In this document: positions 18,300-64,000 of the stretch, piece after piece | Numbering within the stretch: position 1 is the first letter of the stretch | How the letters are laid out: each line of letters begins with the position of its first letter | Origin: a virus | IMG/VR virus record: IMGVR_UViG_3300012363_000001 | Location: 100,872-164,871 of that record | Reading direction: 5' to 3' (one strand) | DNA: 64,000 bases | The notes under the pieces: model-generated | What the model was told of the DNA's origin: nothing | The model's database searches: none | Seen by the model: only the letters and a program-made list of their open reading frames with translations | Program-made: the position numbers and the translations under genes

Positions 18300-19322
18300 A
18301 TGGACGTCGACGCGCAAATGGTCCGCGGCAACGGGGACGTAAAATACGACCTTGCTGCCGGGGAGCCGGTTGCGGTGAAGTTTTCATTCACCGACCAGGC
18401 CCCTAGCTGGACAGACCTTGCTACCAGATATCCGCCGTATCGCGGGCACAAAGAACTTCTGGAACAGTTGCAGTACATTGTGCCGGATAAGCACGTCGTC
18501 GTCACTAATGGCTGTAAACAGGCTATCTTTGCAGCCGTCTACGCCTTAAAAGAAACAAAAAAGAGCAAGTACCTTCATCATCATCAAGAATATTTTTGGC
18601 CTTCGTACCAGACCATTGCGGACTTCAATGGTCTTCAGTTTAGTGCTGGGCCCCGAATTCGGCCACTTAGTGGAATCGAAGTAGTTACCTGGCCAAACAA
18701 TCCAGATGGTCTCAGACAGTACCCCGACGCCAACCGGCACTATGACATCTGGGACGCGGCTTATGCGAGTCCAATTTACGGCTTCCGAGGCAAGAAACCC
18801 GACCACAGCATATCAACCTGGTCAGCGGCAAAGCTCTTCGGCATTCCCGGACTGAGGATTGGCTGGGCTTCCACCAATAGGCAGGACCTTGCGGACCTGA
18901 TGGCACAATACGTCGAGAAAACCACCAGCGGAGTCAATCTCGGTTCTCAGCTATATCTCCGGGACCTAATTAAGGTCTTCAGGGCTTCGAAGTCCGCTGA
19001 CGTCCTGGAAGAGATGCGGACAATCCACCAGCGAATTCAGAGGAACGGGGACCTCTTCAGGCAATATCTTGGTGGATGCATCACCGACCTGTCAGGGGTG
19101 CCGGCGTTGAACGACGGCGGGATGTTTTCCTTCTTCCGAGTCAGCAATCAATACCTTTACACTTTCCCTGATGCCTTGAAGAAAGCCGGTGTCAAACTCG
19201 TGGCCGGCAATGCCTGTGGGGCTTCTATTTACTCCTGGCGGATGTCGATGGGACAGACGAATGAATTCACCGAAGAGGCTCTCCAGGCCCTTCAAAAAGC
19301 GTTGAAGGAGCCAAATGGATAA
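18300..19322 (+). CDS. PLP-dependent aminotransferase (class I/II fold)
   Basis: Transfers amino groups using pyridoxal phosphate. 340 residues, on the short side. Canonical sites: TNGCKQAIFAAVY (phosphate-binding turn, about 69-81), WPNNPDG (131-137, Asn for the cofactor), YDIWDAAYASP (Asp152, Tyr155), TWSAAKLFG with Schiff-base Lys178 and GLRIGWA with Arg186. The blocks EYFWPSY, NNPDG and KTTSGVNLGSQL recall the alliinase/tryptophan-aminotransferase branch more than HisC, from memory only. All catalytic residues are present, so the enzyme is probably active. Amino acceptor unknown. It overlaps the CYTH gene by eight bases. Confidence 0.88.
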   Translation: MDVDAQMVRGNGDVKYDLAAGEPVAVKFSFTDQAPSWTDLATRYPPYRGHKELLEQLQYIVPDKHVVVTNGCKQAIFAAVYALKETKKSKYLHHHQEYFWPSYQTIADFNGLQFSAGPRIRPLSGIEVVTWPNNPDGLRQYPDANRHYDIWDAAYASPIYGFRGKKPDHSISTWSAAKLFGIPGLRIGWASTNRQDLADLMAQYVEKTTSGVNLGSQLYLRDLIKVFRASKSADVLEEMRTIHQRIQRNGDLFRQYLGGCITDLSGVPALNDGGMFSFFRVSNQYLYTFPDALKKAGVKLVAGNACGASIYSWRMSMGQTNEFTEEALQALQKALKEPNG

Positions 19323-40886: not shown

Positions 40887-43800
40887 TTAGGTGCCGACTA
40901 GACTCACGAGGACGTCGGTGTCGACGTTCAAGACCAGAGTCTTTTCAAAGGGCTGAGCACTAATGAGGTCAGACCCAGAGGCAAAGATTGGGCTAAGAAT
41001 CGTGACTGCCAAGACTCCGTTAACCTGGCCAGCGGCCGTGACGATGTCACTGATAGCCACCGGTTGTCCAATGCCTTGTTTGTTGATGACTGCGGCGACG
41101 GCAGACTTCACCTTATTGATGATGTCCGTGGTTGAAACTCCGGTTCGGACTCTGATACTCAAGGAAACTACGATTCTTTTCACCAGAGGCCCGAGGATGT
41201 TCACCGAAGCCCCAACGGCAATAATGCCTGGGTACGTGGCCGGGTCCGCGGGGTCACCGTAGGCGACCTTGTTGACTTGACCGATGAGGCCAATGGCGTG
41301 GCTATAGCCGTCGATTCCCGTGGCAATAGTCGTCGGAAAATTGAGCTTATCCAGAGCCCGGATGACAGTACCGCTGTTGGCGCTGATTTTCGTAAAGTAC
41401 GAAGGAGCCGCGAATTTGACGTCTGCCAGAGTTCCGTCGATTTGATTCGGGGTAATGGCCACAATCTGTTTGATGAAGCGGGTTGCCGCGAATTCGATAA
41501 CTTGGACCAGAGATGAGCTGGTTCCCAGGGCAGCGACAGCGCCTTGAGCCGTGGTAGCTTTTTGAGCCACCGAGACCGCGAAAGCCCATTGGTTCGTGGG
41601 GTCAATACTGGCGACAATCCAGGAGCCGATGTTAGCTGTACCCCATAGAGGTGTGTTAATGGTCAGAGTGTCGCCGGGGATGATGCTGTTGTACTTCACG
41701 AACTTCAAGTCCACTTGACTGATGGCTTCCAGAACGTTCGGATTGTCGACCCAGAAAATCTTGGCAGTGTCGTCAATGCGGATGATTCTGAAGGTGCCCG
41801 TATTTCGGCTATTTAGGTTTGAATAAGAACCGGTGATAATGACCCAGTCGCCTTCCTGCACCCCGGCCAGGGCCGGAGCCGTGCCGGCCTGAGTCCAAAC
41901 GTAGGCCACGAAAGCGTCCTGCTTCTCAATTTGCCAGGTAAAAGCATTGACTACCGCGGCGCCAGTATTCGCCCAGGTCCAGGCTTTGGTTCCTGCAGCG
42001 TTGAATACGAAGTTACCAAGGGCGTCGATGCTGGTCAGAGTCGTATTGGCGTCGATGACGTCCTTAGGCACTGCCTTGCTATTTTCAACGCTAATCCACA
42101 TCTTGCCGCTGAGACCCAGAGCGTCCTGAGCCGCGACAGTAGCCACGGCAAATTGACTCGCGACCCCGACGGCATTACCCTTCACGCTTGAGCTGGCTGT
42201 GTTTGCGCTTCCGCCCTGGACCTGGACGCTGCCACCAGAGCCCAGAGTCAAGGATGCAATCTGCGGCGAAGAACCTTGGTTCGAGGCACTGATTTCCGCG
42301 CTGGCGAACAGACCACCGACGGCACTATTGTTCAGGTAATTGACAATGTTCAAGGTCGTCAGAGGTACTAGACGGACGTCTTCGTTTATCCAGTCGCTGT
42401 TTGTGGCCAAAGACGCGGTGACCGGGTCCTTGAAGGTAAAGGTGTAGTCGGTATTCGTATCCGGGGGATTGACCGTCGACAGAACATAGTTGATGGAATC
42501 AGACATCTGATACCAGGGATTCGGAGCCACGTTCCCGTTACCGTTTGGCGAAGCCTCGTAGCTGGCAAAGGCAATCTGGCCGTTATTTACGGTTCCGTCA
42601 CCAACCGCGACGCCGGTCAGAGGCACGGTGCTGTTTGCGACCGCAGCGAGGTTGTTGACTGTGGTGACAATCTGCGCGATGGTATTGTTACCGGTATCGA
42701 TGGGGTAGAAGCTCAGGCCCGAGGCCAGGGTGACCGGATACCAGGTCAAGGTCGTGCTGACAGCTACGCCGCTGTTGGTCGGAGTATCTGCGGACCAGAA
42801 TTGGTTCCCAAGGGCCTTGATGTTAACGGTCAGCTGGAATGCTGCCGGCAATCCGGTCGTGGCATTTGCCCGGGCGATGTCATTGAGCACCACGGTGCTG
42901 CCCTGGAGGGTAGCTTGACCGCCAACGTCAAAGCTCACGGTACCAATGTTCGGAGTCGCGACTTGGTCGGCTGCAGTTTCTGTGTATTGGACCGTGGTCG
43001 CGGTGACAGCAGTGATGGTGAAGATACCAGAACTGAAGTTGACGTTCGTACTGTTGACAAAAATCTGGTTCCCGGTCAAGAGTCCGTGGTTGGTGATAGA
43101 ACCCGCGAGCGTCAAGGTTAGGGTGGTGACGTTCGTGGTCCTGCTCGCCGTCGAAATCGGGAACCCGAGGACGTAAATGACCGAATAGAGTCCGGTGCCA
43201 CCGGTAAACGTCTGAAAGGCTACGCCAACGTTGGTACTGTTGCGGATAGTAGTTCCGGTTCGAGCCGGTCCGCTAGGCAATCTGATGGTGAGGTTGATGT
43301 TCCCGTCGGTAAAAGTATCGGTGACCACCGAGACCGGGGATGACGGTGCAATCGGATAGTTGTAAGCCAACCGGGCCACGTTGCCTTCCGGACCCGAACG
43401 CCCATAACGCCAGAGGCCGGTCTTGGAATTGTCAGGGCTACCGTGAGACTTCGTGCGACCGCGCATGAATACCGCAAAATCAGTCCAGTCAAAGCTAGTC
43501 CCAAAAGCTGCGGCCAAGGATTTATTGCTGTTGTCAGCGTCCTTGATAGCAACCGTGGCCCCGTATACCGTCGTGGCCGGCTTACCGCGACGGAACATAT
43601 TTACTACGAATCTCTTGCTGACAGCGTCACCGTCGACGATTGTCGTCAGGATGCCTTGGCCATTAAGAGCAAAAGGAGCCGCGGGATACAGGCGGTCTTG
43701 AGGCAGCCACTCTCCTTGAATCACGGAACGACGGAGGTTAACTGTGGTTCCGGAAATGGATTGAATTGCGCTGGTAAATGCCGACTTACCCCAGCGACCT

Positions 43801-46821: not shown

Positions 46822-49323
46822 TTAAAACCGGTTGATGTCGAAAGTCAGGGGCAAATTACGATTGGTCCCGGCGATACCGACTGACAGAGCTATTCTGGCC
46901 ACGGGTCCGTTCAGAAGCACGGACGCAGACTGGACCCCGGTAAAGGTGGGGTTGTTGGCGAAGAGTTTCTTTGTGGAATCAAAGAGGTCTTGGGCGCTGA
47001 GGTCGGCGATACTCGTGCCGATGATGATGCCGATTCCAAATTCCGGATGATGAAGTAGACTACCGCGGGGTGTGGCAATTGCCAGCCGGGCTTGCTGAAT
47101 AATATTTGTCATCCCTACCGCCAGGCGGGTGTCGCCGTCTGGGGTTATGACCAGGTCCCCGAGAGGGGTCAGGAGCAAGTCGATACCGCCGATACGCACC
47201 AAGTCATCAAGCTCATCAACTCCGGGAATTGACTTGGCCTTGAAATCGTTTTCGCTGGGTTGCTCGTCACTGGGGATGAAGACCTGCATCTGCGAGTTGA
47301 CGGTATCCGGCAAGAAGGCATGGATAACCGCCGATGCCAAAACCGTGTACCGGTCAAGATTTGCGACACCGTCCAGAGAAACGACGAAGTAGCTGTCGTT
47401 GACCTTCTCAATGCCGGTGATGCGCCGCCTTTCCCGAGGAGTGGCCGTGCTGCTGATGTATATTCCCTGGCCGACGAACAAGTTCGTAGCCACAGAGACA
47501 ACAACCTGACTTCCATTTCCGTTAGCTATCAGAGCCAGGTCAAATCCGATTTCGTCTATGTACGGAGCCCTGAGACCATTGAGGGCGGCAATTTCGTGCC
47601 ACCGGTCCGGGGTCCCAAGATACCGTGCAGAGAGTTGTTCCAGAGTGTATTGATAGGGCATCGGCACCGAGAACTTTGACGTCGGAACCTTGAAGGCGAT
47701 ACCGGATTTCGTGGCCAGGCCGGCAATAAAGTCCAAGGCACTCAAGAAGTTCCGGTCATCGATAGTCCCGGAAGCCGCGAGACGGTTCGTTTCGAGGATA
47801 ATTTGATTTAGGTTGAAGATGACGTCGAAGTCATCGGACGTCGGAGTCCGGGTCGTGGTGACAGTGGGTCGATTGAAGGTCTTGGTGTAGGTTGGATGGC
47901 CGGCTCCGACAAAGTCCGAGAAATCATCGAGCACGGACTGGAAGCCATCACGTTGGTTTTCGAAGTCCTTTCGGGTGAATTTTTGGACTCTTGCCCTTTC
48001 AGTTGAAATTGCCCTGGTGGTTGTCGGGGGGATGTTCAAGAGCCCGACCTGGATAAGGCTGAAAAAGCCAAAGTTATCGTCAGGATTGTTGAAAACCTTA
48101 TTCGGGGCAGAAGCTCCGGAAATATCCTGCTGAGCATTTACTTGCTGAGCGGTACCGGTTTGAGCTTTGCCGGTAATGACACTGAGGTCCCGGATTTGTT
48201 GCAGGAGCGTTGCGAATTCACGTCTGACGTTCGGTCCGATATCGGTAAAAGATTTTCCAATAGCCGCGGGAAAAGTATCCAGGCCAACGGCTTCTAGGAT
48301 AGGTTCTTTCATGTCCCGGGCAATATTCGCCGGCAGGTCTGCGATGGTGATAGGTACTCCGAGAATGTCTTTGATGAAGAGGACTACACCTCGGAGCGGT
48401 TGAAACAGAGACGCATCGACGTCCGCGCGCACGGCTCTGATAGCGTCTTTGGATTTCTGTACAGCTCGACGAGCGGCTTCCAGTCGATTCAGCGACTGAG
48501 CCAGGGCATTCGGGTCTCTGATGGTCGGGGTTCTGGTGAACGGAGTCGGACCTTCACCGATTCTGATTCTCTTCCAGGCTCGGAACTGAATGTTGTACGT
48601 GTACTCGAAAGGGGAAGTACCGTTTCGGATGACATCGAATACCACCGGCGTCACCAGGTAAACAGCCGGGTCCTTCCAGATGGCGAAAGCCAGACGGAAG
48701 TCACGGCCGGCAGCCGACTTCTTCAGAGTAATGTATGCTTCAAAGAACTTTCGGAGCAACTGAAACTGATAGTATCCGGTTATTTGCCCCGGGGCACCGG
48801 CAAAGTCCCCGTCCGGGATAACGTTCGGGGTTGTCGTCGGGCCTTTGATAGCTGTCAGGCCCTGGCTGGCTGCTGCTCGGGCCGCATTCAAGGTTCCGGC
48901 GAAGATAGCGTCGGGGATACTCAGACGTTGAGACTGTGGAGCAGCACCTTTAAGCGGGTTGACGCCGGTTGTGCCACGGATAGTGATGGTACGTAGTGGG
49001 GCAGCGTTGTGCTCTTCCACGATTCCCCCGAGGGTAGGCACCGTGGTAATGGCAAACGGGGTGCTGATGGTGAGGTCGGTCGGGGGAATGGGGAGAGTGA
49101 ATTTTTGGTCATCTCTGACGTCGTACCCGCTTCCATTCTTTTTGATAATGAGTAACTGATACGGGAAGACCTTGTTCCAGCGCGTACCGACAATGTCTGA
49201 AACCTGCCAGAAAGGGTCATCCAGAGTTCCACCAATACCACTGTTAGGAATCTGAGTGGTTACGTTCCGGGCCGCTAGGTCGGCTGACCCAAATTTAGGG
49301 TCGACTGAGGAGGTATCTGGCAT
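46822..49323 (-). CDS. LysM- and gp25-domain baseplate wedge protein
   Basis: 833 residues. A strand-rich N-terminal part (TLPIPPTDLTISTPFAITT) is followed by a long helical region. About 545-600 is a LysM-like module (YQYTLEQLSARYLGTPDRWH, IAALNGLRAPY), as in XkdP/gp53-like tail proteins. About 700-833 matches the gp25-like wedge domain (GMTNIIQQARLAIATPRGSL, HHPEFGIGI). Such a fusion fits between spike and J genes. In T4 gp25 and gp53 are separate wedge components; here they seem joined. Confidence 0.75.
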   Translation of the reverse strand: MPDTSSVDPKFGSADLAARNVTTQIPNSGIGGTLDDPFWQVSDIVGTRWNKVFPYQLLIIKKNGSGYDVRDDQKFTLPIPPTDLTISTPFAITTVPTLGGIVEEHNAAPLRTITIRGTTGVNPLKGAAPQSQRLSIPDAIFAGTLNAARAAASQGLTAIKGPTTTPNVIPDGDFAGAPGQITGYYQFQLLRKFFEAYITLKKSAAGRDFRLAFAIWKDPAVYLVTPVVFDVIRNGTSPFEYTYNIQFRAWKRIRIGEGPTPFTRTPTIRDPNALAQSLNRLEAARRAVQKSKDAIRAVRADVDASLFQPLRGVVLFIKDILGVPITIADLPANIARDMKEPILEAVGLDTFPAAIGKSFTDIGPNVRREFATLLQQIRDLSVITGKAQTGTAQQVNAQQDISGASAPNKVFNNPDDNFGFFSLIQVGLLNIPPTTTRAISTERARVQKFTRKDFENQRDGFQSVLDDFSDFVGAGHPTYTKTFNRPTVTTTRTPTSDDFDVIFNLNQIILETNRLAASGTIDDRNFLSALDFIAGLATKSGIAFKVPTSKFSVPMPYQYTLEQLSARYLGTPDRWHEIAALNGLRAPYIDEIGFDLALIANGNGSQVVVSVATNLFVGQGIYISSTATPRERRRITGIEKVNDSYFVVSLDGVANLDRYTVLASAVIHAFLPDTVNSQMQVFIPSDEQPSENDFKAKSIPGVDELDDLVRIGGIDLLLTPLGDLVITPDGDTRLAVGMTNIIQQARLAIATPRGSLLHHPEFGIGIIIGTSIADLSAQDLFDSTKKLFANNPTFTGVQSASVLLNGPVARIALSVGIAGTNRNLPLTFDINRF

Positions 49324-58710: not shown

Positions 58711-59195
58711 TGGCGATGATGCGATTAGCTAAGCTCACGCAGATGCAGCTGACCGCCCTGCGGCAGATGCTTCGAATCCTTCTCACGCGAGCGATGAGGC
58801 AAATTGTCAGGGAGGGCAAGAAGCCAGAGCTACCCGAGGCCGACACGTTGCTCAAAATCATGACCGCGAACGAGGCCTTCCTGGACCTGGACGCTGCGCT
58901 CCTGAGTCTGTGGTCAATCCTCCGGGCCAAGAACATGCCGGAAAGCTATTTGCCGATGTCCCAGAACCGCCACGTCAAGTACCTGACCATCGTCGAAGCC
59001 CAGTACACGGCAGAAGACTATCCGAACGTCCCCGAGGGGACCGTGAACGCGGCTCTGGAGCCAGTACTGCTCGAACAGCCTGGTCTCGTGGCTGCATTCC
59101 GGGATGCGGCCTGGATTGCTGAAAAGGACCTGCCGGGCAACGACGAGAAGGGCGTCTTTGTCACTCAAATTCCCGAGACTGGATTCTTGAATTGA
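58710..59195 (+). CDS. Helical hypothetical protein
   Basis: 161 residues, ATG overlaps previous stop. The first half is helical and basic (MQLTALRQMLRILLTRAMRQ), the second more globular. No motif recognised. Confidence 0.5.
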   Translation: MAMMRLAKLTQMQLTALRQMLRILLTRAMRQIVREGKKPELPEADTLLKIMTANEAFLDLDAALLSLWSILRAKNMPESYLPMSQNRHVKYLTIVEAQYTAEDYPNVPEGTVNAALEPVLLEQPGLVAAFRDAAWIAEKDLPGNDEKGVFVTQIPETGFLN

Positions 59196-59202
59196 GCGCC
59201 CT

Positions 59203-59400
59203 ATGAAACCCTGTAAGGGTGGCGAACATTCTCTGGTCGAAATCTACCGTACCTACGGTGGCTATTTCCAGGGGGATACGGTTGTGCGTTGGTGCCAGTA
59301 CTGCGGCGGAGTCGTTGTCGACGCTGAGTTCGACGGGCGCGTCTTTCCGGGCCGCGTCCGGGAAATGGAATTCCCAGAAGTAGCCAAGGCTCGTCTATGA
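59203..59400 (+). CDS. Small putative zinc-binding protein
   Basis: 65 residues. N-terminal MKPCKGGEHSLVEIY and later WCQYCGG give a C...H...CxxC pattern, compatible with one zinc. Stop overlaps the RNase H start (ATGA). Confidence 0.5.
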   Translation: MKPCKGGEHSLVEIYRTYGGYFQGDTVVRWCQYCGGVVVDAEFDGRVFPGRVREMEFPEVAKARL

Positions 59401-59867
59401 TATCGGTCTATACCGATGGCAGCAGTCATGCTGGTGGAGGGAAGCCTGGTGGGTGGGCATATTACCTCGTCCACGATAGGGTCCCGATTACCTGTGGATA
59501 CGGCAGTGACCCGGAGACGACAAACAACGCCATGGAATTGAAGGCCGCCCTTGAAGGTCTCAATGCTGCCTATCTCTTCCGGCGCCTGCACCCCCAGGAA
59601 CAGGTCGAATTGGTATCCGATAGCGAGTATGTTCTCGGTGCGGCCTCGGGCACGAACCGCATCAAGAAAAACCTGCACCTTGCCACCGCGGTCCGTTCCT
59701 TCGCCGCCTTACTTAATGCCAAGACCCGTTGGGTTCCCGGCCACTCCGGAGATACTTTCAATGAGGCTTGTGACAGGTTAGCTCACAACGCCAAGGCAGA
59801 AATCTGCAAACATTGCGGTCCCAGGACAGCTGTAAGAAAGAAGAAAGCGTTATGTGGAAACGGATAA
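59397..59867 (+). CDS. rnhA: Ribonuclease HI
   Basis: Degrades RNA in RNA-DNA hybrids, removing primers. 156 residues, usual RNase HI length. Catalytic set: Asp7 in YTDGSS, Glu47 in NAMELKAA, Asp75 in VSDSEYVL and Asp126 in NEACDRLA, with His116 in WVPGHSGD. Complements the phage primase. C-terminal 20 residues (ICKHCGPRTAVRKKK) add a CxxC and a basic tail not common in the family. Confidence 0.93.
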   Translation: MISVYTDGSSHAGGGKPGGWAYYLVHDRVPITCGYGSDPETTNNAMELKAALEGLNAAYLFRRLHPQEQVELVSDSEYVLGAASGTNRIKKNLHLATAVRSFAALLNAKTRWVPGHSGDTFNEACDRLAHNAKAEICKHCGPRTAVRKKKALCGNG

Positions 59868-60238
59868 AAGCCATTCATACCAACTTCCTGGAGTTGTGTT
59901 TCTTCCGGCTCTTGAACGGGTCCTTGAGCGCACAAGAGATTGAGGCCTTTGGGGTACCATATAGAACCTGGAAAGACGCTCAATACCGAATGTTGACCCC
60001 AGGCGAGAACGAGGAAGTCAAGCTTGCTGAGAAGAAAGCTTTCGAAGAACTATGCGCCGCCGTTGGCGACCTGGAGCGATTCCTCCGTATCCCGACCGCG
60101 GTCCACTGGTTAATGGTCTTCGTGGAGAGAATGCGTCAAGGCGGCATCTCAACCCAGAGGATTTCCAAAATCACCGGCCTCAAGCCGGCAATAGTCGTGA
60201 AAATGCTGGAAGATGCAGCCAAGGGAAAGAAGTCCTAA
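59852..60238 (+). CDS. Helix-turn-helix-like hypothetical protein
   Basis: 128 residues from ATG 59852, overlapping the RNase H gene by 16 bases. C-terminal part (QGGISTQRISKITGLKPAIV) reads like a helix-turn-helix; the N-terminal part is helical (ALCFF-like FLELCFFRLLNGSLSAQEIE). A DNA-binding role is possible. Followed by the dyad at 60235-60253. Confidence 0.45.
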   Translation: MWKRIKAIHTNFLELCFFRLLNGSLSAQEIEAFGVPYRTWKDAQYRMLTPGENEEVKLAEKKAFEELCAAVGDLERFLRIPTAVHWLMVFVERMRQGGISTQRISKITGLKPAIVVKMLEDAAKGKKS

Positions 60239-60253
60239 TTTCCAGGAAATTAG
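60235..60253 (+). promoter_or_regulatory. Perfect 19-bp dyad, operator candidate
   Basis: CTAATTTCC A GGAAATTAG is a perfect inverted repeat with 9-bp arms and a single central base, starting at the stop of the HTH-like gene and lying before uracil-DNA glycosylase. A one-base loop rules out a stable RNA hairpin, so a protein-binding site in DNA is more likely. Confidence 0.45.
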
Positions 60254-60267
60254 TAGCGGATTAGTAG

Positions 60268-60810
60268 ATGAATCTCACCGACCTTCGAAACATCCTCGGC
60301 AACTGCCAGCGCTGCAAGCTCCACGCCGGCCGGACCAACATTGTCTTCGGCTCGGGGCCAGAGACCGCAGAACTGATGCTTGTCGGTGAAGGGCCTGGAG
60401 CGGAGGAAGACCTGCAGGGCTTGCCGTTCGTGGGTCGGTCGGGGGCGTTGCTCAGGAAAATATTAAAAAACGTCGGCGCCCCGGAGCCGTATATCGCCAA
60501 CGTGGTCAAGTGCCGGCCGCCGAAGAACCGAGTCCCAGAGCCAGCCGAAGTCAATGCCTGCGCCGGGTTTCTGGCGGCACAGATTGGCATCATCCAACCC
60601 CGGGTCATCGTGACGCTCGGGAAGCTTGCCGCCGAAACCCTCCTCGGGGAAGCCGTAGCCATCACCAGGACCCGAGGCTACTGGAAGCAATGGCGAGACA
60701 TCCCCTTGATGCCTACCTTCCATCCTGCTTACGCCTTGAGAAATCCCCGGGAAGAGAGTAGAATGGTGGCAGATTTTCAAGCTGTAGTCGAACGACTGGT
60801 GAAACAATGA
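60268..60810 (+). CDS. Uracil-DNA glycosylase, family 4 (Fe-S type)
   Basis: Removes uracil from DNA. 180 residues. GEGPGAEED (40-48) and MPTFHPAY are the catalytic motifs; Cys13, Cys16, Cys82 and Cys98 are the four cluster ligands (CQRC, KCRPP, NACAG). PFVGRSGALL follows the family. The TAA of the upstream gene and the dyad lie before it. In a phage it could protect against uracil-bearing host or phage DNA, or repair deamination. Confidence 0.9.
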   Translation: MNLTDLRNILGNCQRCKLHAGRTNIVFGSGPETAELMLVGEGPGAEEDLQGLPFVGRSGALLRKILKNVGAPEPYIANVVKCRPPKNRVPEPAEVNACAGFLAAQIGIIQPRVIVTLGKLAAETLLGEAVAITRTRGYWKQWRDIPLMPTFHPAYALRNPREESRMVADFQAVVERLVKQ

Positions 60811-60932
60811 AAAAGTACCTGTTTACAATCTGGGCTTTGTTCAAGGAGATTCTCTTCAACATTTTCGTGAGCTTGGTCACACTCATTATCTTCTTCGCTC
60901 TCCTGAGTGTAGTCGGAAGGTACCTGCGATGA
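60807..60932 (+). CDS. Small single-pass membrane protein
   Basis: 41 residues, ATGA overlaps on both sides. Hydrophobic core (IFVSLVTLIIFFALLSVVG). Absent from ordinary ORF size limits. Membrane protein of unknown role. Confidence 0.55.
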   Translation: MKKYLFTIWALFKEILFNIFVSLVTLIIFFALLSVVGRYLR

Positions 60933-61285
60933 ACAAACTCCTCGAACTCCCGGAAGTTGAACAGCCTACGTCGAGCATCGTCGCCCCGGCTGAGGCCGAG
61001 ATTCCGCGTGAAGAGCCCTTGGCCACTAACAAGAGTCAGGCCACACGGATGGCCAAGAAGCTTTTCGGCCCCAAGGCTCGCTGGTACAAGAACAACCTTA
61101 AGAAGATTCGACACGACGTCGAGGCCCCGGAATGGTTTGGTATCCCGGAAGGCGATGTCATCTTGACCATTGACCAGGGCAACCGACACCAGGTCTTAGC
61201 CCACGGCAAGGACTACGACGCCGTGCTCAGGGCCGTCACCGAGAAGGAAACTCATGAACGTATCCTGCAGAGTCTTGCCAAATAG
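60929..61285 (+). CDS. Small hypothetical protein
   Basis: 118 residues. A disordered Glu/Pro/Ala start, then a basic helix-strand part (KKLFGPKARWYKNNLKKI, RHDVEAPEWFGIPEGDVIL). Its last 32 bases overlap the start of the following HNH-AP2 gene. Confidence 0.5.
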   Translation: MNKLLELPEVEQPTSSIVAPAEAEIPREEPLATNKSQATRMAKKLFGPKARWYKNNLKKIRHDVEAPEWFGIPEGDVILTIDQGNRHQVLAHGKDYDAVLRAVTEKETHERILQSLAK

Positions 61286-61787
61286 CTTCATGAAAACAAT
61301 CCCATTGAGCCAGGGGCAGGTAGCCATCATTGACGATGAGGATTTTAATTGGGTCAACCAATACAAATGGAGTTTTCAACGCAATCGTCGAACTGGCTAT
61401 GCGGTGCGCAGTGTTAAATATCACGGTAAACAGACTCGTTTTCCTCTTCACCGAGAAGTTCTTGGCCTAGGGCCCGGCGACCCAGAAGTTGACCATCGAG
61501 ACGGAAATGGATTAAACTGTACCAAGGATAATTTGCGGATGGCTACTCGCCAGCAGAACCAACGCAATCAACGTAAACATTTAGGAACATCCAGTCAGTT
61601 CAAAGGCGTTTGCTGGGATAAAGCAAATCGTAAGTGGCTTGCTCAAATTCAGATTGATGGATACCTCGAATACTTAGGCCGTTTCGACGCCGAACTAACT
61701 GCAGCTAGAGCGTACAATCTTGCCGCAGTCCAGGCCTTTGGCGAATTCGCTCAACTCAACAGAACAAAATTCTTGGAGAAATCATGA
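61254..61787 (+). CDS. HNH-AP2 homing endonuclease
   Basis: 177 residues if started at ATG 61254 (GAAGGA before it); ATG 61290 lacks a ribosome site. HNH core DPEVDHRDGNGLNCTKDNLR (about 83-102) and RMATRQQNQRNQRKH, followed by an AP2 DNA-binding domain (FKGVCWDKANRKWLAQIQID, ARAYNLAAVQAFGEFA), a fusion common in phage homing enzymes. The N-terminal peptide MNVSCRV resembles the start of the next protein (MSISCRI), and the DNA upstream of both is also similar, suggesting insertion near the start of that gene. Confidence 0.85.
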   Translation: MNVSCRVLPNSFMKTIPLSQGQVAIIDDEDFNWVNQYKWSFQRNRRTGYAVRSVKYHGKQTRFPLHREVLGLGPGDPEVDHRDGNGLNCTKDNLRMATRQQNQRNQRKHLGTSSQFKGVCWDKANRKWLAQIQIDGYLEYLGRFDAELTAARAYNLAAVQAFGEFAQLNRTKFLEKS

Positions 61788-62032
61788 GCATTTCTTGCAG
61801 AATTTGCGGCAAGCCCGCAACCATGAGCGGTGGGGACTTCGAGACAGAGGTCTGTTCTTTTGACCACGCCCTGGTCTTGGCCGGGTTTGCGCGAGCGAAG
61901 CCATTGACCTTGATGCAAAGGATATGGCAGTCGGCCGCCTTCAGTCCGAATCATCCTCAGTTTTTCTGGTTTTTGACGCTATACACTTTCTTGGTCCTGC
62001 TCGCTCTTTCAAATGTCTGGAGAAAAATATGA
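61784..62032 (+). CDS. Small membrane protein with N-terminal zinc pair
   Basis: 82 residues. MSISCRICGK holds a CxxC pair; FFWFLTLYTFLVLLALSNVW near the C-terminus is a membrane helix. Stop overlaps the next ATG. No family. Confidence 0.5.
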   Translation: MSISCRICGKPATMSGGDFETEVCSFDHALVLAGFARAKPLTLMQRIWQSAAFSPNHPQFFWFLTLYTFLVLLALSNVWRKI

Positions 62033-62355
62033 CAGGCATCCTCAAGCGCCTTGACGGCAAGAACCCCAGCGCTCTCCGGACACCCGAAGTCGAGGGAACT
62101 TATTACTATCCGCCTGAAGTTGGAAGAACGTTCCACATGTACGCCAAGCCGTTGAATCCAGAAGCTACGCTCCGGGTGGTGACAACTTCCGAAGTCCAAG
62201 AAGTGAACAGGCTTGAAGCAACGGTGTCCGGGAAAGACCAATGGGTCCGATACGAGTTTAAGACCCAAAACAGTGTCTACAGTCTCAGAGTCCTGGGTTT
62301 AGGCAGTAACCTTGAAGAGAAGGCGCCACCCCTCGTTTTCGTCAATATAGACTGA
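62029..62355 (+). CDS. Small beta-rich hypothetical protein
   Basis: 108 residues from ATG 62029. Strand-rich (GTYYYPPEVGRTFHMYAKPL, WVRYEFKTQNSVYSLRVLG). A small virion-like or regulatory fold; no family. Confidence 0.5.
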   Translation: MTGILKRLDGKNPSALRTPEVEGTYYYPPEVGRTFHMYAKPLNPEATLRVVTTSEVQEVNRLEATVSGKDQWVRYEFKTQNSVYSLRVLGLGSNLEEKAPPLVFVNID

Positions 62356-62537
62356 TGCAGTGTCAGCGTTGCCAGGACCTGATGGACCGAATCAAGGGAA
62401 TCCGTACCATGACCTCGCCGTTTTTAGGGGTCCAAAGTTTTCGAGTAGTACTTCGTAGACTCTTCGAGAAGTTGAACAAACATCAGCGCGTCGCACATCC
62501 AGAACTACGACATCGGAAAGTAATTGGACCTCCATGA
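62355..62537 (+). CDS. Small hypothetical protein
   Basis: 60 residues, ATG overlaps previous stop. CQRCQDLMDRIKG begins with a CxxC; basic helix follows (RVVLRRLFEKLNKHQRVAHP). Possibly nucleic-acid binding. Confidence 0.45.
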   Translation: MQCQRCQDLMDRIKGIRTMTSPFLGVQSFRVVLRRLFEKLNKHQRVAHPELRHRKVIGPP

Positions 62538-62549
62538 ACCGGCACAGGA

Positions 62550-62747
62550 ATGACTAAAGGCGAATGGAAGAGACTGGCCACGACTTTTGGTTTCAAGCCC
62601 GGCTGTCCCCGGTGCTGGCAACTCTGGGTCAAAATGAACAGGGCTCGCACGGAGCAGCGTGCCACCCGCACGGTCTGGAAAATAAATAATCACCGACGCC
62701 AGCATTGGCCCGACTGCGCTCCTGAGTCTGTGGTAACATTGCTCTGA
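62550..62747 (+). CDS. Small putative zinc protein
   Basis: 65 residues. FGFKPGCPRCWQLWVKMNRA has a CxxC and basic residues. One Cys further on near the C-terminus (WPDCAPES). No family. Confidence 0.45.
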   Translation: MTKGEWKRLATTFGFKPGCPRCWQLWVKMNRARTEQRATRTVWKINNHRRQHWPDCAPESVVTLL

Positions 62748-62748
62748 A

Positions 62749-63006
62749 ATGTCCCAAAATCCCATCTTTGACGCCATCGAGGATGAACTGATTCGCTGCC
62801 TGGAGCGGGGCGCCAAGCTTCCCGAGGACTTTACAATAAATTTATCCCGGGAAGAGTTCCGGGCCATGATGGAAGCCGGAATGATAAGCCTTGAGACCGG
62901 GAAGCAAATGCCTATGAACAGAACCTGGGTTGTGGTGACAATCGCCGACCTCATCGTAAGAATCAGGTCCGAAGAAGACCCTGACAGCTGGGAGCCAGAA
63001 CAATGA
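62749..63006 (+). CDS. Small hypothetical protein (gene before the HNH insertion)
   Basis: 85 residues. Helical start (DAIEDELIRCLERGAKLP) and a strand-rich end. The stop lies in a 16-bp segment repeated after the next gene, and overlaps the HNH start (ATGA). In the ancestral order this stop would have overlapped the ATG of the gene now at 63392. Confidence 0.55.
   Translation: MSQNPIFDAIEDELIRCLERGAKLPEDFTINLSREEFRAMMEAGMISLETGKQMPMNRTWVVVTIADLIVRIRSEEDPDSWEPEQ
62991..63006 (+). repeat. 16-bp direct repeat, left copy
   Basis: GGAGCCAGAACAATGA, identical to 63380-63395. It contains the end of the 85-residue gene and the start codon of the HNH gene. The two copies frame the HNH gene exactly. 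Confidence 0.85.
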
Positions 63007-63380
63007 AAAGTAGCGCAACAAAGTGGAGAAGAGACCATCCTCAAGAAGCACGTATGATTACACAAAGGTGGCGACAAGCTCACCCCGAAATGTGCATGTA
63101 TGTCGGCGCTCGAAATAGCGCCCAGAAACAGGGTCGAGAATTTTCTATAGACTTAGACGACATCGTCATTCCAGAATTTTGCCCAGTCTTTCCACACATC
63201 AAATTAAGTAAACTTGGTGGTAAGCGTTCGGATTCCACTCCATCAGTTGATAGAATCGACAACACCAAGGGTTACGTAAAAGGAAACGTTCGAGTCATTT
63301 CATGGCGAGCAAACCAATTAAAAAGCAACGCGTCCCCGCTTGAAATCGGTTTGCTATACAAGTATACTTGCTCAAAATAG
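63003..63380 (+). CDS. HNH-like endonuclease inserted between two coupled genes
   Basis: 125 residues. PSVDRIDNTKGYVKGNVRVI and SWRANQLKSNASP give the core typical of one small HNH group. It starts in the left copy of a 16-bp direct repeat (ATGA overlap with the preceding stop) and ends in front of the right copy. The coding region is AT-richer than its neighbours. Likely a recent invader that kept both flanking genes functional. Confidence 0.75.
   Translation: MKSSATKWRRDHPQEARMITQRWRQAHPEMCMYVGARNSAQKQGREFSIDLDDIVIPEFCPVFPHIKLSKLGGKRSDSTPSVDRIDNTKGYVKGNVRVISWRANQLKSNASPLEIGLLYKYTCSK
63352..63370 (+). promoter_or_regulatory. Putative promoter with palindrome
   Basis: TGCTATACA at 63352-63360 and TATACT at 63363-63368, within the palindrome CAAGTATACTTG (63359-63370). 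It lies at the end of the HNH gene and could supply a promoter to the gene displaced downstream. Confidence 0.4.
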
Positions 63381-63395
63381 GAGCCAGAACAATGA
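63380..63395 (+). repeat. 16-bp direct repeat, right copy
   Basis: GGAGCCAGAACAATGA, identical to 62991-63006. It supplies the ribosome-binding site and ATG (63392) of the following gene. The distance between copies is 389 bp. Confidence 0.85.
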
Positions 63396-63814
63396 CGCCA
63401 CCGCCCTTTGAGATTCCCATCGAGCCGATTGACCGCTACGAGGTCCGGTGGTTCAAGGTTGAACCTTACTTTGGCAGAGTCGAGGAAGGCCTTGCCGTCT
63501 ACCACAAAAACACTACCTGGAGAGAACTTTATCCTGAAGACCCTGTTGCCGGAGTAGACATTGTCAACGAGTGGATGATTCACCATGATGGTAGGGCCAC
63601 TGGGCGTTCAGACGAGGGTTGGCGTGCACTGCTTGAGTTTGACTGGTGGAACGACCGTCATTTCAAGACCCGAAAGGAAGCCCTCCAAGCTCTTCTGAAG
63701 ACTTTCCAGGAAAAAGAAATTCGACTCCGGAAAGAGCTATCCGAGCTTGAAGAAAAATTTGCCCGGACCGGGGAAGAGCTGAGAAACGTTGAGCTTACGG
63801 AACAGTACGCATGA
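63392..63814 (+). CDS. Hypothetical protein with C-terminal coiled coil
   Basis: 140 residues from ATG 63392 (within the right repeat, GGAG upstream). First 90 residues are globular (RYEVRWFKVEPYFGRVEEGL), then a coiled coil (LKTFQEKEIRLRKELSELEE). The original neighbour of the 85-residue gene. No family. Confidence 0.6.
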   Translation: MTPPPFEIPIEPIDRYEVRWFKVEPYFGRVEEGLAVYHKNTTWRELYPEDPVAGVDIVNEWMIHHDGRATGRSDEGWRALLEFDWWNDRHFKTRKEALQALLKTFQEKEIRLRKELSELEEKFARTGEELRNVELTEQYA

Positions 63815-63823
63815 TGATAAAAT

Positions 63824-63895
63824 GGCCTCATCGTCTAGCGGTTAGGACGCTGGTCTTTCAAGCCGGTAACCTCGGTTCGAATCCGAGTGAGGTCA
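63824..63895 (+). tRNA. tRNA-Glu (anticodon TTC)
   Basis: Cloverleaf: acceptor GGCCTCA (63824-63830) pairs with TGAGGTC (63888-63894; one G-U), D arm TCGTCTAGCGGTTAGGAC, anticodon loop CTTTCAA with TTC, and T arm with GGTTCGAATCC. The discriminator base is A at 63895; no CCA is encoded. It lies between genes; the host's enzyme would add CCA. Such tRNAs can compensate for codon bias. Confidence 0.93.
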
Positions 63896-63898
63896 ACG

Positions 63899-64000
63899 AT
63901 GAGTTGTTCACCCCCACCTTACAAGTCAACATCTCAGGGCACCTTCCGGCGGCAGGTGCGGGACATCCGACCCTGGGACCTGGCATATCCGATAAACGAC
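63899..64000 (+). CDS. Start of a gene cut by the window edge
   Basis: ATG 63899, 3 bases after the tRNA; the frame stays open for 34 codons to the edge (MSCSPPPYKSTSQGTF, then RDIRPWDLAYPIND). Typical protein-like composition. Family cannot be determined. Confidence 0.45.
   Translation, partial: MSCSPPPYKSTSQGTFRRQVRDIRPWDLAYPIND

Follow-up and report, generated by a model that had tools for sequence, protein, structure and literature searches.

A putative HNH homing endonuclease gene between two copies of an ATGA gene junction in a viral genome

Little is understood of how free-standing homing genes, which bring along no start signal, enter a new site in genomes with overlapping genes and leave the neighbor alive. 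The locus described here raises this question in a compact form, with an HNH-type gene lying at a stop-start overlap between two genes that are both complete. It is located near the end of an IMG/VR virus record of 164,871 b, positions 100872-164871 of which constitute the window, that is, the whole stretch of 64,000 nucleotides that was analyzed. Unless indicated otherwise, coordinates refer to the window. Below, we describe the junction, ask whether the repeat that brackets the HNH gene could be fortuitous, examine the nature of the encoded protein, and compare the locus with occupied and empty sites in other phages.

Anatomy of the junction

A scan of the window recovered exact copies of GGAGCCAGAACAATGA at the two places given in the preliminary description, and neither the window nor the whole record holds a third copy at up to two mismatches. 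The identity between the two copies stops sharply at 16 bp on both sides of both copies. The locus comprises the following features.

62749..63006, plus strand: left outer gene, 85 aa, an orphan (ORF without relatives)
62991..63006, plus strand: left copy of the repeat, GGAGCCAGAACAATGA; closes the left gene with its stop and provides the HNH gene with an SD and ATG
63003..63380, plus strand: HNH-type endonuclease gene, 125 aa, a putative free-standing homing endonuclease (by phrog_3322 match, predicted fold and GC)
63007-63379: unique insert between the repeat copies, 373 bp
63380..63395, plus strand: right copy of the repeat, GGAGCCAGAACAATGA; supplies the final G of the HNH stop codon as well as the SD and ATG from which the right gene starts
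63392..63814, plus strand: right outer gene, 140 aa, an orphan (ORF from its ATG, without relatives)

The left outer gene ends in ...TGG GAG CCA GAA CAA TGA, and the SD and spacer part of the repeat corresponds to the last 12 nt of this gene before the ATGA, with the left-copy spacer, CCAGAACA, doubling as codons for the last residues of the left protein. The HNH ORF opens on the ATG of the left copy and closes with a TAG that borrows its G from the first base of the right copy, whereas the right outer gene has its ATG in the right copy, with GGAG located 8 nt upstream of it. The ORF coordinates agree with the earlier statements that the left copy contains the stop of the preceding gene along with the start codon of the HNH gene, and that the right copy contains the ribosome-binding site (RBS) and ATG of the following gene. 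Neither neighbor is broken, as had also been noted: both outer genes are complete, with the HNH gene wedged in their ATGA junction. When one copy and the insert were removed and the flanks joined in silico, both outer frames were open and the ATGA overlap was restored; the expected empty-site sequence, in which the end of the left gene runs straight into the start of the right one, would be GACAGCTGGGAGCCAGAACAATGACGCC. An assembly artefact was considered and rejected by reasoning only, 16 bp being shorter than the usual assembly k-mers and the ORFs being coherent. The right outer gene is followed immediately by a tRNA-Glu (TTC) at 63823-63897, close to where the record ends.

Is the repeat beyond chance?

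The GGAGCCAGAACAATGA pair is the only exact direct repeat of at least 16 b at a spacing of 150-2500 b in the 164,871-b record. In a flank-repeat test, whereby the 100 b around the start of each gene-like ORF were locally aligned with the 100 b around its stop, the HNH gene ranked first among the 229 gene-like ORFs, with a score of 32 compared with a 99th percentile of 23. This test is not proof on its own, because the T4 genes alt, e.3, e.4, and ipI score high too, alt owing to an annotated duplication. In T4 e.4 (18302-18694 of one T4 stretch examined, minus strand), an exact 16-b repeat, AAATTTGTTAAGGAAT, is found near the start and near the stop.

Given that the repeat coincides with the SD, spacer, and ATGA, the two starts might have reached the same initiation sequence independently, by chance or through convergence of their RBSs, with no duplication involved; moreover, the same 16-mer is present in 38 other viral stretches in IMG/VR, many of which resemble start contexts. 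Against such convergence, an all-against-all comparison of 230 start contexts (positions -12 to +4; 26,335 pairs) yielded a single pair matching at 16 of 16 positions, namely, the HNH gene and the right outer gene, with the runner-up matching at 13 of 16. Shared RBS bias therefore cannot account for the repeat. The double duty of the left-copy spacer, which also encodes the end of the left protein, argues in the same direction, and we consider independent origin of the two starts highly improbable.

Nature of the middle gene

The HNH protein matches the phrog_3322 endonuclease profile over most of its length (1.2e-30, residues 7-118) and the phrog_1035 endonuclease VII profile (4.6e-14); no Pfam family was matched. 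From viral contigs, 80 relatives were collected. D83, R84, G90, Y91, N95, and N104 are invariant in the family alignment. Relative to the canonical H-N-H/N catalytic residues, the central N95 and the final N104 are kept, and the first catalytic His is replaced by Arg (R84), as it is in 63 of 64 family members. Judging from the alignment, this departure from the HNH canon is a feature of the whole family, not of this copy alone, and it casts some doubt on catalysis. The DHHRN pattern (D-H-x-H ... R ... N) is matched at D83 and N104, with R84 and D86 taking the places of both His residues.

The AlphaFold2 model of the protein (pLDDT 88.9) has as its best PDB match the HNH enzyme R.PacI, with a probability of 0.98, but an E-value of 0.019 and a TM-score of 0.44; the Gme HNH nickase ranks fourth among the PDB matches to the model. 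PacI was also picked, weakly (E 0.4), in a profile search. In phage Vi06, whose DNA polymerase gene is split, a clear relative of the protein (profile E 8e-30) is encoded within that gene, and HNH homing endonucleases are known in introns of phage DNA polymerase genes (PMC3428280).

The insert has a G+C content of 44%, compared with 54% for the record, which places it in the lowest 0.23% of windows of the same size. Apart from the tRNA, no Rfam RNA, group I introns included, was detected in 59000-64000, and the gene forms an ORF of its own between two genes whose frames are complete once joined, as would be the case for a free-standing element. Because of the match to an HNH-type family, the AT-rich insert, and the lack of intron RNA, the middle gene is best read as a putative free-standing homing endonuclease gene. 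Many relatives possess an N-terminal Cys-rich part, and 5' truncation of the gene was considered as well; this was rejected, as further relatives start at nearly the same position.

An alternative is that the HNH-fold protein is a resident phage protein, such as a regulator, and that the repeat is a scar of an old local duplication. Srd is a putative T4 sigma-factor decoy, and the protein does match phrog_1400, annotated as 'Srd anti-sigma factor' (5.7e-7); the replacement of His by Arg at a catalytic position would also be compatible with a resident role. However, the match to the phrog_3322 endonuclease is far stronger, the relative in the split Vi06 DNA polymerase gene occupies a place of intron homing endonucleases, the GC content of the insert is atypical, and the family is present or absent among otherwise similar Streptomyces phages (see below). 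We regard a resident protein as improbable and retain the assignment to putative homing endonucleases.

Relatives and the empty site

Neither the left nor the right outer gene has a relative in annotated phages, IMG/VR, or GTDB genomes (tblastn was also tried), the IMG/VR and GTDB scans being matches of exact 8-residue peptides, which distant relatives can escape. A single IMG/VR match to the left outer gene, within a tape-measure protein, was dismissed as a chance match. The joined ATGA junction, which the preliminary description proposed to seek in related phage genomes, was not found, both genes being orphans in the searched collections, and none of the 38 IMG/VR stretches with the 16-mer carries a relative of either outer gene. 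The source is a large environmental tailed phage. By its baseplate protein, the nearest isolate is Myxococcus phage Mx1 (38.7% identity), which has a similar genome size; this suggests that the record and Mx1 come from a related lineage. Mx1 has no match to the left or right outer gene, and the right outer gene is absent from two short IMG/VR relatives (67-68% baseplate identity). Since the empty site for these two outer genes was not observed, we infer their joined ATGA ancestor from the occupied locus and from the analogous cases described below.

A second case in the same genome

Altogether, five HNH-type genes were found in this phage. One of these, an AP2-HNH gene sitting 1.7 kb upstream of the main HNH locus, is flanked by a repeat as well.

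60929..61285, plus strand: upstream gene A, the 3' end of which holds the left copy
61247..61278, plus strand: left copy, GAAACTCATGAACGTATCCTGCAGAGTCTTGC, giving the AP2-HNH frame an upstream ATG (61254)
61254..61787, plus strand: HNH_3 and AP2-like free-standing nuclease gene
61778..61807, plus strand: right copy, GAAATCATGAGCATTTCTTGCAGAATTTGC, the start of gene B
61784..62032, plus strand: downstream gene B, 82 aa (MSISCRICGKP...), overlapping the AP2-HNH stop by ATGA

The AP2-HNH gene product matches PF13392 (1.3e-7) and phrog_99, and its AP2 match (1.1e-3) is under Pfam's cut-off. In the left copy, the ATG is preceded by AAGGA and opens a protein beginning with MNVSCRVLPNS. The repeat, 30-32 b in length, has 25 of 30 aligned bases identical, with 2 gaps, and ranks second among the 229 genes in the flank-repeat test (shuffle p 0.0014). 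Apparently, this locus represents the same arrangement as the main one, with a doubled downstream start, in an older state. The three remaining genes have no flanking repeat of this kind.

Record positions 47315-47773, 93688-94206, and 156075-156587, all minus strand: three further Endo VII/HNH-type genes

Occupied and empty sites in T4-like phages

Applied to the first 50 kb of T4, the flank-repeat test gave mobC the top rank among 70 genes.

42906-43538 of another T4 stretch examined: T4 mobC region

The mobC start, ATGAATTATGACAGAATCTATTCA, and the nrdG start, ATGAATTATGATAGAATTTATCCA, share 21 of 24 b. The corresponding empty sites are available in T2, RB14, and Sf23, which are without mobC and show the ATGA overlap between nrdD and nrdG. 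The same nrdD/nrdG point is occupied in Ec_MI-02 by another HNH gene, whose start, MNYDRFYPCDFVN, is the native nrdG start; nrdG behind this HNH gene has a second start, which has diverged further from the empty site than has the left copy and resembles the nrdG start of phage RB9, where the nrdD/nrdG junction carries a different homing gene. The mobC product and the Ec_MI-02 nuclease have in common a short HNH core only (38% over 60 aa). The duplicated copies in the T4-like phages are diverged, with lengths of 24 b and about 40 b, and look like alleles from two parents.

With both empty and occupied nrdD/nrdG sites sequenced, the T4-like precedent is established: an ATGA junction can take up an HNH gene, with the start of the downstream gene then present on either side of the insert. 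The main locus displays the same combination of features as mobC, in that the ATG of the nuclease is part of a copy of the downstream start, the downstream start itself is retained, and ATGA stands at the upstream stop. Among the 12 free-standing T4 homing genes, only mobC has a clear flank repeat; the 11 others are without one, mobB (score 24, AT-rich) not being counted as a clear case.

Streptomyces phages and the generality of doubled junctions

In Streptomyces phages, genes of the same HNH family as at the main locus are found behind the ribonucleotide reductase gene in NootNoot, Teutsch, Wipeout, Watermoore, and Jay2Jay and are absent from this position in Persimmon, Bartholomune, Larnav, MindFlayer, and EGole. 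Presence and absence at the same site in relatives is seen here for the protein family, not for the main locus. In Wipeout (852-1530 of the stretch examined), the C-terminus of the HNH gene is formed by the 16 b with which the native reductase gene ends, and the native reductase tail with the DNA following it, found behind the HNH gene, is identical to the empty site of MindFlayer over 133 b; the reductase gene in front of the HNH gene ends in a variant tail that matches the native one at 13 of 16 b. The flank repeat alone is weak in this case (score 17), and the doubled gene end was recognized by comparison with the empty MindFlayer site, not from the flank score. Wipeout is the mirror image of the main locus, with a gene end doubled rather than a gene start. 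The insertion spot of Wipeout is occupied in Paradiddles by a gene whose annotation is that of a different HNH.

Across the family, the flanks of 63 other members showed no excess of repeats over those of 809 control ORFs (Mann-Whitney p 0.45). The HNH insertion in mycobacteriophage Courthouse, which is precise relative to Thibault (PMC3706429), has no doubled junction on inspection. Taken together, these two results indicate that the doubled junction is not a family trait; it marks some insertions, perhaps those into overlapping genes.

Origin of the second copy

The analysis points to a likely insertion with junction duplication at the main locus. Specifically, an Endo VII/PacI-like HNH free-standing homing gene probably entered an ATGA-coupled gene pair and now lies between two copies of the junction. 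In the preliminary description, the endonuclease had been proposed to enter a coupled pair and to duplicate the junction in the process; the architecture behind this proposal is exact, the T4-like and AP2-HNH analogies lend the model strong support, and the two copies may stem from duplication of one and the same junction.

The ancestor would have consisted of the two outer genes joined by the ATGA stop-start overlap. In the occupied state, the left copy would end the upstream gene and supply the SD and ATG for translation of the nuclease, coupled to that of the upstream gene, whereas the right copy would be the initiation site of the downstream gene. The nuclease might cut unoccupied alleles near the site and spread by break repair, the right side of which would be homologous, such that the donor's version of the downstream start comes in together with the nuclease gene, while the joining on the left would be illegitimate, at a point a few bases beyond the start that the recipient already had. 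By whichever route the second copy arose, selection would account for the outcome, since at tight junctions an insert would survive only if the nuclease acquires a start and the downstream gene is left with one. Recombination between identical copies could, in turn, excise the HNH gene cleanly.

For T4 intron homing, there is documented precedent for one-sided, illegitimate repair of breaks at microhomology (PMC2988022), and reviews of T4 cover such repair along with ectopic insertion and overlaps between the starts of homing endonuclease genes and upstream stops (PMC2988022, PMC2993671), an example among the free-standing genes being mobE, with UAAUGA (PMC2988022). We favor one-sided recombination as the source of the second copy, a model with which the divergence of the right copies in the T4-like phages agrees.

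The copies at the main locus are, by comparison, identical and sharp-ended, as could be expected from a transposition-like target-site duplication, in which the joined junction is nicked at positions 16 bp apart, an HNH fragment is joined in, and fill-in yields identical copies. Such an origin has been read from remnant direct repeats in the case of a wasp, where an insertion in mitochondrial cox2 comes with a putative HNH nuclease (PMC5374615). Yet homing endonucleases do not usually produce a stagger of 16 b, SegA leaving 2-nt extensions (PMC2988022), and some HNH enzymes nick a single strand (PMC3428280). Furthermore, the T4-like copies differ from each other in sequence and in length, and most family members lack repeats. 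Because the T4-like copies resemble two parental alleles, target-site duplication is no more likely than recombination between two phages, and we consider such duplication unlikely at the main locus.

In a broader and more tentative reading, phage HNH homing genes of unrelated families could repeatedly settle at stop-start overlaps by start capture, in which the nuclease would take the native initiation site of the downstream gene and an element-borne second copy would rescue that gene. If so, start capture would be nature's parallel to rescue-copy gene drives, and it would account for the invasion of tightly packed operons by nuclease genes that have neither a promoter nor an RBS of their own. 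The main locus, where the insertion is apparently clean and recent, would then be the freshest example among the cases compared. A recent identical pair, an older diverged one 1.7 kb away, and T4 with its empty sites lead to a testable rule, namely, that the start of the nuclease is the native downstream start and that the downstream gene starts from the second copy. It is this rule, suggested jointly by the AP2-HNH, T4-like, and Streptomyces phage cases, that gives the main locus its wider value, and doubled starts would offer a simple route to homing genes and past insertion sites in unannotated phages. The literature surveyed, outside of which lies the study of the mobC site by Sandegren et al. 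2005, yielded no earlier account of a downstream start doubled at a phage ATGA junction.

Comparison with known systems

A doubled host-gene terminus next to an endonuclease ORF is known from fungal mitochondria (Allomyces atp6, Glomus), where the ORF lies between two host-gene termini, one of them element-borne (PMC3630166). The likeness is in the doubled terminus flanking the ORF; unlike at the main locus, the fungal enzymes are LAGLIDADG or GIY-YIG proteins, the duplicated parts are 3' gene ends, the copies are long and diverged, and the elements reside in organelles.

With regard to the enzyme, F-CphI of cyanophage S-PM2, a member of the DHHRN family with the Endo VII motif, is likewise free-standing and of the Endo VII-like class, and it is encoded beside its target gene (PMC6083498). 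The two differ in that, by motif spacing, H41 and H43 of the DHHRN protein correspond to R84 and D86 here, where the central Asn is N95 (residues from PMC6083498).

The HNH genes of the Samistivirus/Karimacvirus phages (NootNoot, Teutsch, Wipeout) belong to the same family, at about 50% identity, and also lie directly after the stop of a gene and are absent from relatives, in Wipeout with a doubled flank. They differ in encoding longer proteins with an N-terminal Cys-rich part and in having the 3' end of the upstream gene as the duplicated segment, with diverged copies.

The closest parallels in arrangement are T4 mobC and the HNH gene of Ec_MI-02, both inserted exactly at the ATGA overlap, with the nuclease start inside a copy of the downstream start and the downstream gene retaining its own start copy. 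The HNH families differ, and an empty relative is known there, not here. The duplicated part in the T4-like phages is diverged nrdG coding sequence, whereas at the main locus it consists of the 12 nt upstream plus the ATGA, identical in both copies.
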